Assembly: GCF_019972295.1 (NCBI RefSeq)
Contig: NZ_BLJA01000001.1
Coordinates: 900,049-964,048 of the forward strand
Length of the DNA stretch: 64,000 nt
Source of the DNA: Geobacter sp. AOG2
GTDB lineage: Bacteria; Desulfobacterota; Desulfuromonadia; Geobacterales; Pseudopelobacteraceae
Direction of reading: 5' to 3'
Part shown: positions 36,616 through 52,634 of the stretch, one piece after another
Numbering within the stretch: position 1 is the first letter of the stretch
How the letters are laid out: each line of letters opens with the position of its first letter
The notes under the pieces: model-generated
Database searches by the model: none
What the model saw: the letters and a program-made list of their open reading frames with translations, nothing else
What the model was told of the DNA's origin: nothing
Translations under genes and position numbers: made by a program

Positions 36616-36722
36616 AACAAAACTTTAACATTAACATGAATTCGTGATGCCGGGATGTCACAGTGTCCGACGGAGGCGTCACGAATTCAGAATTTAGTGT
36701 ATTAAGAGGTTGTTGAATGCTC

Positions 36723-48984: not shown

Positions 48985-49939
48985 GAAAGCCTTTCAGCGC
49001 CCAGGCGGCGGCAATGCAAACAGCCGCCATGAGCAGGGTGGTGGCGTACATCAGTCTGATCATACTCCGGTATGCCCGCCCGTCAAGGGGGGCCAGCGGA
49101 TCGCCGATGTGTTCCTTCCAGGAGGGGCGGCCGCCGTAGCTGGCCGCACCCCCCAGGCGCACCCCCAGCGCCCCCGCTGCCGCAGCCTCCGGGTGGCCGC
49201 TGTTGGGCGAAGGGTGGTTGCGGCGGTCGCGCAGTGCGATTCGTGCGGCGTTTCGCCCGGAAAGCCCGGCCAGGGGGGCGGCCATGACCATCAACAGGGC
49301 GGTCAGGCGGGCAGGGATGAAATTCAGCAGGTCGTCCATGCGGGCCGATGCCCAGCCCATCCGCAGATAGCGTTCGTTTTGATAGCCCACCATGGAGTCC
49401 AGGGTGCTGACCGCCTTGAAGGCCATGCCGGCCACCGGACCGCCGAGGGTCAGCCAGAACAAGGGCGAAACAATGCCGTCGGCGGTGTTCTCGGCCACGG
49501 TTTCCACCAGTGCCCGCCAGATGTCGGCATCGCCGAGATCGCGGGTGTCGCGGCCGACGATATACGACAGATTACGTCGCGCCTCATCCCGGTTTCCCGC
49601 CGCCAGCGCGTCTGCGACCAGAGCCGATTCCCGGTGGAGGGAGCGGGCGGCCAGGCAGGTGTAGGAAATATATGCCGCGCCCAGGAAACCGGCAAAGGCA
49701 TTCAGTGTTGTGAGCCCGTACACCGCCAGCCAGGTTGTTGCCGCGCTCGTTCCCACGGTGAGGAGCAACAGGCCGATGCCGGCTGCCCGCTCATGGCGGG
49801 TGATCCTGCGCAGGCCCGATTCCAGAAGGGCGATCAACCGGCCGATCAGGACCACCGGGTGGGGCAGCCGGCGGGGGTCGCCCAGGGTCAGGTCCAGCAC
49901 CAGAGCCAGGATCAGCACTGCCGGTTCCGCGGAAGTCAC
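48968..49939 (-). CDS. cbiB: Adenosylcobinamide-phosphate synthase CbiB
   Basis: Inner-membrane enzyme that attaches aminopropanol (phosphate) to adenosylcobyric acid. The 323-aa protein has several hydrophobic helices and the family motifs LDLTLGDPRRLPHPVVLIGR, IVGRDTRDLGDADIWRALVE, VAENTADGIVSPLFW and GNHPSPNSG-like RRNHPSPNSGHPEAAAAGAL. It starts 4 bp inside the end of the CobJ-CobQ gene (ATGA overlap) and overlaps cobD, so the three cobalamin genes form a tight operon. The substrate comes from the CobQ half of the upstream protein. Confidence 0.96.
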   Translation of the reverse strand: MTSAEPAVLILALVLDLTLGDPRRLPHPVVLIGRLIALLESGLRRITRHERAAGIGLLLLTVGTSAATTWLAVYGLTTLNAFAGFLGAAYISYTCLAARSLHRESALVADALAAGNRDEARRNLSYIVGRDTRDLGDADIWRALVETVAENTADGIVSPLFWLTLGGPVAGMAFKAVSTLDSMVGYQNERYLRMGWASARMDDLLNFIPARLTALLMVMAAPLAGLSGRNAARIALRDRRNHPSPNSGHPEAAAAGALGVRLGGAASYGGRPSWKEHIGDPLAPLDGRAYRSMIRLMYATTLLMAAVCIAAAWALKGFHVPQP

Positions 49940-52431
49940 CGCTCCAGCCCGCAGATGTCCAGCATGAGGGGGATGTCCAGGTGGCGTTCCAGGTGATCGG
50001 CCAGCCGGTCGAACGGATCGCCGTGGTCCCGTTCATGGTTGTCGTGTCGCACCGGCAGGCCCTTGTCGCGGCGGATGCGGTTGAGATAGGCCTCCCGGAA
50101 GCGGGCGTTCTCGAAGAGCCCGTGGAGGTAGGTGCCGAAGACCCTGGCATCCGGGGAGACCGCGCCGTCCTCGACGGCCACCGGGTCGGCCCCGCGCCGG
50201 GAGATGCGGGCGAAAGGAGCCGCCGGGCCGATGGGAGTGGTGGCGCCCATGTGGATCTCGTAGCCGGACAGGTCGTCCCCGCAGCCGGGGGCTATCGCGA
50301 GCCCGGCCGCGTCGAGGCGGGCCATCGCCTGTTGCGTCGTCTTTTCCGGCAACAGCTCCGTTTCCACCGGGAGCAGGCCGAGCCCGGCCAGTTCCCGGAC
50401 GTCCGATTCCACACCGTGGGGGTCCAAAACGCGCCGGCCGAGCATCTGGTAGCCGCCGCAGATGCCCGCGATATGCCCCGTGAAACCTTGTATGGCCTCG
50501 AGGAAGCCGCGTTCTTCCAGGTAGCGGAGGTCGGGGATGGTCGATTTGCTGCCCGGGATGATGAGGACATCGATCCCGGCCATCTGGTGCGGCGATTCCA
50601 GATAGGTGAGGATACAGTCGGGCTCGTGACGGAAGGCGTCGAAATCGGTGAAGTTGGAGATGCGCGGCAGCCTGACTACCCCTATGCGGATGGCCTTCGG
50701 GTCGGGAACTCCTCCGGCCGGTTGCGAGGGGCGGCTGAGCGCCATGCTGTCCTCGGCGGGCAGGTCGAGGTCCGCCAGCCAGGGGAGGACGCCGATGATC
50801 GGGATGCCGGTCCGTTCCGCGATGAAGTCCAGGCCCGGCTTCAGAATGGCGGCGTCGCCGCGGAACCTGTTGATGATGATCCCGCGGATCATGGCTTTCT
50901 CATGGGGCTCCAGCAGGTCGATGGTGCCGACGATCTGGGCAAAGACGCCGCCGCGGTCGATATCGGCCACCAGGATGACGGGGCAGCGCGCCATGGCGGC
51001 CACCCGGAGGTTGGCGATGTCGCTGTGTTTGAGGTTGATCTCGGCAATGCTCCCGGCCCCCTCGATGGCGATGAACCCGTAAGCGTTCTTCAGGCGTTCG
51101 AAGCTCTCCGTCACCTTTTCGAAAGCCTGGGGTTTGTAGGCGTCGTAGTGCGCCACATCCATGTTGCCCACCGGCCGTCCCTGGACAATGATCTGGCTGC
51201 CGGTGTCGGAGTTGGGTTTCAGCAGCACCGGGTTCATGTCGGTATGGGCCTCGATCCGGCAGGCCTGGGCCTGCACGGCCTGGGCCCGGCCGATCTCGCC
51301 CCCCTCGGGGGTGACGCCGGAGTTGAGGGACATGTTCTGGGATTTGAAGGGAGCGACGCTGATGCCGCGTCTGACCAACAGGCGGCAAAACCCGGCCGTA
51401 ATGACCGATTTTCCCACGTCCGAGGCGGTGCCGCAAAACATGACGGCGCCCGGCGGGGAGACCTCCGGCGCATTCTTATCCGCCTGAAGCCGTGACGCCT
51501 CCATGCCTTCGTTTGGCCGGAAGACCTCCGCCTTTGCATGCATGGAGACAAGCGAGTGTTCGACGGAGGACCGGCATGGTGAGCTGTCTGCTGGGACATG
51601 GGTGGCGTGCGGGCTCCGGTTCTCCCGGACACTACGGCATTCCGGCGTCACGGCTTCAGGTTTCGAACCGGGGGCGTCGCCGTACTTGCCCGCGTAGCCG
51701 CGGGGCGTGACCATGCGTCCGTGGCGGTCCGCAAAGCTGCTGCCGTTGCCGATGACCACGATGGTGGACATGTCGATCCGGTGCTCCAGCATCTCCCCCA
51801 GGGTGGTGACGGTGCTCCATTCGTCGGGGCGGCAGGCGTTGCGCACGATGCCCGCGGGGGTCCCGGCCGGCCGGGAGGCCAGAATGATGCGGCGGGCCTC
51901 CTCGATCTGGGTGACGCGCTTCGTGCTGCGGGGGTTGAAGAGCACGATGACGAAATCGGCCCGGGCGGCCGCATCCAGCCGTGCGGCGATCCGGTCCCAG
52001 GGGGTGAGCAGGTCGGAAAGGGAGATGACGGCAAAGTCGTGCATGAGCGGTGCGCCCAGCACGGAGGCCGCCGCCTGGATGGCCGAGATGCCGGGTATGA
52101 CGCGAACGTCCGGTTGGGGCAGTCCGCTTTCGGCCTCGTTTTCCAGGAGTTCCAGCACCAGCCCGGCCATGCCGTAGATACCGGCGTCGCCACCGGAAAC
52201 CAGGGCAACCGCCTCGCCGGCGCGCGCCCTGGCGATAGCCTCGCGGCAGCGTTCCATCTCGCCCATCATACCGGTTGCCACCGTTGCCTTTCCGGCGATG
52301 AGCGGGCCGATCTGTTCCAGGTAGCTGGTGTAGCCGATAATGGTTGCGGATTGGGCTATGGCCTGACGGGCGGCATCGGTCAAGTGGACGATGTCGCCGG
52401 GGCCGGTGCCGACGATGTACAGGGGGGGCAT
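49936..52431 (-). CDS. CobJ-CobQ fusion: precorrin-3B C17-methyltransferase and cobyric acid synthase
   Basis: ATG 52431, preceded by AGGTGATTCC, opens an 831-residue frame with two enzymes. Residues 1-250 are a CobJ/CbiH methyltransferase (PLYIVGTGPGDIVHLTDAAR, VALVSGGDAGIYGMAGLVLE, VIPGISAIQAAASVLGAPLM, ending TPRGYAGKYGD). Residues 329-831 are CobQ/CbiP amidotransferase (MFCGTASDVGKSVITAGFCR, PFKSQNMSLNSGVTPEGGEI, GGVFAQIVGTIDLL and the glutaminase Cys in GHIAGICGGYQMLGRRV). The linker 251-328 is mostly (259-316) encoded by a 174-bp palindromic element. Both steps belong to the corrin ring pathway (C17 methylation; a,c-side chain amidation). Frame is unbroken; the frame upstream of 52431 (towards 53013) is not coding. 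Confidence 0.9.
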   Translation of the reverse strand: MPPLYIVGTGPGDIVHLTDAARQAIAQSATIIGYTSYLEQIGPLIAGKATVATGMMGEMERCREAIARARAGEAVALVSGGDAGIYGMAGLVLELLENEAESGLPQPDVRVIPGISAIQAAASVLGAPLMHDFAVISLSDLLTPWDRIAARLDAAARADFVIVLFNPRSTKRVTQIEEARRIILASRPAGTPAGIVRNACRPDEWSTVTTLGEMLEHRIDMSTIVVIGNGSSFADRHGRMVTPRGYAGKYGDAPGSKPEAVTPECRSVRENRSPHATHVPADSSPCRSSVEHSLVSMHAKAEVFRPNEGMEASRLQADKNAPEVSPPGAVMFCGTASDVGKSVITAGFCRLLVRRGISVAPFKSQNMSLNSGVTPEGGEIGRAQAVQAQACRIEAHTDMNPVLLKPNSDTGSQIIVQGRPVGNMDVAHYDAYKPQAFEKVTESFERLKNAYGFIAIEGAGSIAEINLKHSDIANLRVAAMARCPVILVADIDRGGVFAQIVGTIDLLEPHEKAMIRGIIINRFRGDAAILKPGLDFIAERTGIPIIGVLPWLADLDLPAEDSMALSRPSQPAGGVPDPKAIRIGVVRLPRISNFTDFDAFRHEPDCILTYLESPHQMAGIDVLIIPGSKSTIPDLRYLEERGFLEAIQGFTGHIAGICGGYQMLGRRVLDPHGVESDVRELAGLGLLPVETELLPEKTTQQAMARLDAAGLAIAPGCGDDLSGYEIHMGATTPIGPAAPFARISRRGADPVAVEDGAVSPDARVFGTYLHGLFENARFREAYLNRIRRDKGLPVRHDNHERDHGDPFDRLADHLERHLDIPLMLDICGLER
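51485..51658 (-). mobile_element. 174-bp element with 15-bp perfect inverted ends, in frame inside cobJ-cobQ
   Basis: TGAAGCCGTGACGCC at 51485-51499 is the exact complement of 51644-51658; a further 8 bp keep 5 identities. The length is 58 codons, with no stop in the coding frame, and it encodes residues 259-316 (E259 to Q316), Arg/Ser/Pro-rich and unlike either flanking enzyme. No transposase is present, so this is a passive palindromic element like a MITE or an RPE-type insert. Confidence 0.78.
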
Positions 52432-52447
52432 GGAATCACCTGTTAAC

Positions 52448-52570
52448 AGGTTGTTGAAAAACAGCCAGCTCGCCGCCGTCCTCGAAAGCCCTCTTGTGCG
52501 GCGTAGCGCTGCTACGCCTCCGCAGGGCTTGTCTAGCGGGTGCGACGATCTGACTATTTTTGAACAACCT
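52448..52570 (-). repeat. MITE-like repeat, copy 6 (123 bp)
   Basis: From AGGTTGTTGAAAAACAGCCA to TTTTTGAACAACCT, centre GGCGTAGCGCTGCTACGCC. The outer extension GAGTTTTTAAACAGCCTG lies at 52572-52589. It lies just upstream of the CobJ-CobQ start and downstream of the transglycosylase gene. Confidence 0.92.
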
Positions 52571-52634
52571 GAGTTTTTAAACAGCCTGTTAAGTGGATGC
52601 CGCACAGATTGTTGCGCGGTAAAGATGGCAGGAA

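Follow-up and report, generated by a model that had tools for sequence, protein, structure and literature searches.

A transposed, MITE-like element very probably lies within the cobJ-cobQ gene of Geobacter sp. AOG2, where it would have landed in the tolerant linker of a pre-existing fusion and persisted as a near-neutral passenger. The fused gene (831 aa) occupies 49936..52431 on the minus strand of the window, by which we mean the whole 64,000-nucleotide stretch of DNA that was analysed, and a single open frame spans CobJ, the palindromic segment and CobQ, in agreement with the unbroken frame described in the initial annotation. Profile matches to the 831-aa protein, both of them full and above cut-off, place CobJ at residues 4-247 (TIGR01466) and CobQ at residues 329-826 (NF001989), so that the site does fall between two complete enzyme domains as had been claimed. 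The element itself covers 178 bp at 51483..51660 (no strand assigned), and its in-gene translation corresponds to residues about 258-317.

The perfect 15-bp inverted ends by which the segment was originally recognised are indeed present at 51485-51499 and 51644-51658, and alignment with other copies places the true element ends 2 bp further out on each side. The earlier length of 174 bp, equal to 58 codons, is therefore correct for the inner segment and not for the element, which measures 178 bp; the 58 codons are accidental, being set by the point at which the perfect match breaks off. The 17-bp terminal inverted repeats lie at 51483..51499 (left, CCTGAAGCCGTGACGCC, plus strand) and 51644..51660 (right, CCTGAAGCCGTGACGCC on the minus strand). 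They are flanked by a decayed target-site duplication, ATCCG at 51478..51482 (+) and TTTCG at 51661..51665 (+), in which three of five bases match, and in the cob copy of the related genome G002 the duplication is TTCCG with all five bases matching. Allowing up to 3 mismatches, we counted the end sequence 4 times in the window, which is not above shuffles (mean 3.25), and the end pattern alone hence proves little; we accept the segment as a real element because the whole element recurs elsewhere in the genome, where 15 other copies are complete or nearly so. At window 36635-36691 lies a 57-bp hairpin that shares the ends of the element and has a short middle; it probably derives from the element by internal deletion, and similar minis are found in the home genome (G000) at 859654-859731, 2488205-2488269 and 3275160-3275225.

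When the segment was searched at the DNA level against its own genome (3.92 Mb), we recovered 11 copies, the window copy included, one of which came out in two pieces. A family model built from the sequences of 23 copies found the same 11 together with five more distant ones, giving 16 full or nearly full copies, of which the 15 beside the window copy matched at E values from 3.3e-41 to 6.9e-9. The five distant copies (type B), aligned with three of the 11, share the ends and are of near-equal length with a different interior. At E <= 1e-8 and with stricter filters, 26 of the 141 genomes searched from the order, among them the own genome, contained family matches, while the five other genomes of the genus had 4-36 matches each at E <= 1e-4, with partial and possibly reverse-strand matches counted. 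In a collection of named genomes, exact end pairs at the right spacing occurred at 10 places, carried by Oryzomonas japonica Red96, one Oryzomonas MAG, two Geobacter MAGs and one Deltaproteobacteria MAG; these names suggest that the genus is Oryzomonas. We tabulated 106 copies, a set that leaves out the hits of G008, G009, G012, G015, G016, G023 and G024, along with 33 of the 42 matches in G019, partial hits and weak hits that were unlisted. Two cob copies, those of G002 and G005, stand outside this table and were added only for orthologue and flank comparisons. Clustering by flanks sorted the 106 copies, orthologues included, into 70 site groups, and was used instead of grouping by element similarity alone, which merged whole subfamilies and was dropped. 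Copies are 159-180 bp long, with 96 of the 106 at 172-178 bp. Being shorter than 500 bp and too short for a transposase gene, with 17-bp terminal inverted repeats, a 5-bp target-site duplication and multiple dispersed copies (16 in the own genome), the segment would be one copy of a non-autonomous MITE-like element of Geobacterales.

A second, younger repeat (~145 bp, core GGCGTAGCGCTGCTACGCC) is found directly upstream of cobJ at window 52448-52596. At least 39 further copies with 89-98% identity exist in the own genome among the 41 matches listed (165 candidates, 40 scored), and the core, with at most one mismatch, also occurs at window 4520, 22726, 35147, 36484, 36773 and 60603. It resembles GRCGTAGCGCTGCTACGCC, which the relevant section of PMC2700814 gives as the core of a 24-copy predicted RNA family of G. 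metallireducens.

Across the 106 copies, the five bases flanking each side agree at 0.558, compared with 0.28 (sd 0.02) when the sides are shuffled between copies, a spread that is too narrow because the copies include orthologues (70 site groups) and are not independent. Flank agreement at lags 2-4 and 6-9 ranges from 0.27 to 0.36, lags 2, 4 and 6 also being somewhat above their own controls. All five bases of the duplication match in 21 of the 106 copies and four of five in 21 more. This 5-bp agreement is the mark of transposition: the element moves, or once moved. Transposition with a 5-bp target duplication, as seen over the 106 copies, would presumably have been carried out by a transposase.

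We found no transposase and no longer element sharing these ends in the own genome, among the matches listed for relatives, or in plasmid, phage and viral sequences. The 58 ends with at most 3 mismatches in the own genome (9 in a backward-read control) did not lead to a transposase. One inward-facing pair 2.7 kb apart was rejected as a parent since it encloses genes with GTPase and DUF480 domains, the former of which we take to be HflX-like; three more pairs that face inward, at distances of 3.8, 5.3 and 7.5 kb, draw on ends of known copies or of a mini, and one pair 5.7 kb apart joins two ends with 3 mismatches each. In G002, G005, G016 and G023, no longer element with the same ends was seen among the matches listed; plasmid and phage records gave no element match up to E 0.01, and viral contigs yielded three single exact ends and no family-model match. 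Insertion sequences of the IS1380 family generate 4-5-bp duplications and have CC ends. A search for their transposase returned matches in 8 of 39 genomes, one of them over cut-off, and a parent of this family was discarded as there was no transposase match in the six genomes of the genus. The open frame at G000 849427-851235, which belongs to a GTPase gene with HflX-like Pfam domains and a predicted start, extends into a type B copy that sits just upstream of the gene.

The initial annotation had proposed that insertion of a passive element either created the fusion by removing the cobJ stop or struck a tolerant linker in a fusion that was already there. We searched the 831-residue protein in 39 genomes of the family and order and scored a locus as fused without the element when its CobJ and CobQ matches were assigned to an open frame of identical stated length, with less than 100 bp separating the two. 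In 30 of the 39 genomes the enzymes are fused without the inserted residues, across a gap too small for the element (in G037, one of the 30, the CobQ match contains a TAG), and five, all in the genus, have a fused frame with the element (G000, G001, G002, G003 and G005). The remaining four comprise G014, in which the parts lie apart, G016 and G020 with no match, and G025 with CobQ only. G004, which belongs to the same genus, has a fused frame with a short linker and an empty site in which no element remnant was seen. Among element-free loci the linker varies in length and sequence, as judged by a locating motif that missed 7 of the 30 loci. Since the fusion exists without the element in these 30 genomes, the element entered an old fusion. 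The element does sit exactly between the two enzymes, as expected if loss of the cobJ stop had fused them, but that account is highly improbable: most genomes, G004 included, are fused without it, the parts are apart only in G014, and the outgroups refute it unless all of them lost the element yet kept the fusion. The alternative, insertion into the linker of an existing fusion, is the one borne out. For a sequencing or assembly artefact, to which we attach practically no weight, no supporting point was found, and four other genomes carry an in-frame insert at this very site, which refutes it.

Domestication of the peptide as a functional linker or extra domain, and retention of the element for its hairpin, are the other accounts to be weighed against a near-neutral passenger. 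The cob copies of the five genomes measure 178, 178, 178, 175 and 175 bp and thus differ by whole codons only, while 18 of 25 other multi-species copy groups differ in length, 15 of the 18 by a non-multiple of three, with some of the lengths in these groups coming from copies with damaged ends. In ten pairs of the five genomes (NG86), dN/dS is 0.40-2.59 (mean 0.98) for the element, 0.08-0.21 (mean 0.15) for CobJ and 0.15-0.25 (mean 0.21) for CobQ. From whole-codon lengths combined with a dN/dS near 1 we conclude that the frame is guarded and the peptide hardly so; the element peptide looks tolerated rather than selected, and dN/dS suggests that it is a passive, near-neutrally evolving passenger. 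Domestication, as the initial annotation had it, could draw on the presence of the peptide in five genomes with only whole-codon length changes and on a dS inside the peptide that in 7 of 10 pairs falls below the values of CobJ and CobQ alike (in two pairs it lies between these values, and in G002-G005 above both). We nevertheless think it quite unlikely, given the dN/dS near 1 and the fact that G004, in the same genus, does without the peptide; moreover, conservation of the frame is expected without any peptide function because CobQ lies downstream. The element might instead be kept as an RNA or DNA hairpin (a regulatory RNA, an attenuator or a protein-binding site), its location in a gene being incidental. 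Changes common to both inverted arms (see below) and the near-constant length, which extends to copies with diverged interiors, would fit, but this too is unlikely, as a search of window 51000-52600 against Rfam gave nothing up to E = 1, the RNAalifold covariation term was about zero for representatives of type A (42) and of type B (17), and flank duplications and scattered sites point to mobility. A structured RNA was set aside, the Rfam and RNAalifold results lending it no support.

Under the preferred reading of a passive insertion, the element would have entered the short, variable linker of the already fused gene, most simply once, in the ancestor of the genus, and would have added 183 bp (61 codons) to it. 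As the 178 bp and the 5-bp target duplication together make up these 183 bp, the gene frame is kept, and the insertion would have survived because this sum is divisible by three, the element is read in frame 0, which its ends usually leave without stops, and the linker tolerates extra residues. In a tree of the enzyme parts, G004 groups with the element-bearing G001 (support 100), which means that a single insertion requires later loss or exchange. G004 probably lost the element or exchanged the site, the latter through recombination with an allele that lacks the element. The linker alignment of G001 and G004 is poor relative to its flanks. In a comparison of copies of at least 165 bp, the left flank of the G005 copy matches G003 at 98% and its closest relative G002 at 82%, and the interiors of the cob copies of G002 and G005 agree at 84% compared with 90-100% for 10 of 12 other shared copies (82 and 74% for the other two). 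In CobJ, G002 and G005 are 97% alike. Mosaic flanks surround the element in the cobJ-cobQ linkers of G002, G005 and G003 (L018, L019, L110). Local recombination or gene conversion at the cob site is likely, and since the divergence between the G002 and G005 copies and the mosaic flanks indicate that recombination probably touched the site, dN/dS there is a rough guide.

In cobJ-cobQ the element is read in frame 0 (CCT GAA TCC GTG). When the 106 copies were read on both strands (212 readings), a stop fell within the first 17 bases in 159 readings of frame 1, 183 of frame 2 and one of frame 0; on either strand, two of the three frames of the 17-bp ends usually contain TGA stops. No stop interrupts the element from end to end in 78 readings of frame 0, 31 of frame 1 and 16 of frame 2, and 34, 10 and 4 readings, respectively, are open and have a frame-keeping length. 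Length plus 5 bp is divisible by three in 39 of the 106 copies.

Insertion sites were placed inside genes in 3 of the 70 site groups, namely cobJ-cobQ and two genes of G001 in which the element splits a signal peptide and is likewise read in frame 0. In the TPM-domain gene (PF04536), the insertion separates MRVRRILL from LLAILVLLPLPLPA, relatives such as G002 reading MRLRNIFILALLVLLPLPLPA, and the junction repeat TCTTACTG on both sides exceeds 5 bp and is offset by a single base. In the outer-membrane efflux gene (PF02321), it separates MIDSKL from LLYRRCLTLAGAVMLLGGC with AAATTA on both sides, and G000 reads MIDRQSRYRRCRFLAGALMLLTGC. Both start codons are predicted. The two insertions (L178 and L181) part the signal peptides ahead of the hydrophobic core, and RHGFR, which is positively charged and encoded by the element end, could act as a new n-region. 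The in-gene screen took open frames of at least 150 aa that run across a copy and extend 20 aa or more beyond it in either direction, a design that is blind to frame-breaking insertions, and yielded 26 frames, three of them cob. In the 20 of 23 non-cob frames that were scanned with Pfam, domains were found on both sides in none and on one side in five.

The inverted arms of the element change together. Taking one copy per site group (68 of 70, with ends of at most 5 mismatches), we found that 42 of 151 departing end positions are common to both arms, compared with 5.7 (sd 2.3, maximum 18) in 5000 shuffles of arms between copies. Such shared departures can be inherited from the source copy. Among pairs of orthologous copies that both reach 170 bp and show no more than 6 end differences, a difference is present in both arms at 21 of 714 positions compared with 4.5 expected, 18 of them to the same base, although the pairs are non-independent and 10 of the 18 same-base changes come from the cob group. 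At position 7 of the cob copies, both arms have T in G001, G002 and G005 and G in G000 and G003, and on our reading of the enzyme tree this pattern requires at least two double changes. One-sided changes of the cob arms are seen at positions 1 (G001, G003, G005), 5 (G005), 14 (G002) and 15 (G003). Homogenisation of arms by template switching is described for yeast genes in the pertinent passages of PMC8604942. Template switching may act on the arms of this element as well, and replication template switching would be the simplest way in which the arms keep co-changing after insertion. A broader proposal strikes us as possible, if somewhat short of probable. Because the ends usually carry TGA stops in two frames, in-gene copies that survive would add the same kind of peptide, and the element would nearly always be translated in one way, from PESVTP... 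to ...RHGFR; the in-gene palindrome might then be a lasting local mutator, in which template switching keeps the arms alike and two protein segments ~50 residues apart co-change for a DNA reason rather than a protein one.

MITEs inserted in frame are already known from Rickettsia and Coxiella, and gene-internal repeats from other Geobacter families. The RPEs of Rickettsia are described, in the section of PMC10969869 devoted to them, as ~150-bp palindromes that lie in frame in unrelated metabolic genes and add peptides. The parallel with RPEs drawn in the initial annotation holds for behaviour, an in-frame palindromic insert in coding genes (here the cobJ-cobQ, TPM-domain and efflux genes), and the clear 5-bp target duplications of this element are a point of difference; RPEs are also reported there to be in frame unusually often (PMC10969869), whereas we count three in-gene sites among 70 site groups. 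According to the part of the same article that deals with it, Chunjie of Geobacter uraniireducens is a 178-235-bp MITE that has direct repeats as well as inverted ends; one copy disrupts a phosphate uptake operon, 37 more being said to be intergenic (PMC10969869). By description, it resembles our element in size, in the presence of inverted ends and direct repeats, and in coming from a Geobacter, but its copies lie in an operon or between genes, whereas the cob element is inside a gene and in frame. Multicopy sequences of G. bemidjiensis and G. metallireducens are located within protein-coding genes without frameshift, as the corresponding passages state (PMC2996986, PMC2700814). Those of G. 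bemidjiensis are said there to occur in genes in all reading frames (PMC2996986), whereas ours, compared by description only, is in frame 0 at three sites. QMITE2 of Coxiella burnetii, a MITE of 150-190 bp, is at times found in frame within an ORF, but has direct repeats of 7-11 nt and is mainly in 3' untranslated and intergenic regions, as given in the sections of PMC5896051 that treat it. Among the papers listed by literature searches, which covered open papers without their supplements, we recognised neither this element family nor an insert in cobJ-cobQ.

The insert of ~60 residues persists in most sampled species of the genus. It provides a clean case outside Rickettsia in which a mobile palindrome adds residues to a metabolic enzyme, with filled sites, an empty site, a target duplication and outgroups all available, and an instance of protein linker growth by transposition without evident benefit. 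It also allows one to test, in a natural setting, if copying from arm to arm gives rise to paired changes in a protein, which could be mistaken for coevolution or positive selection.
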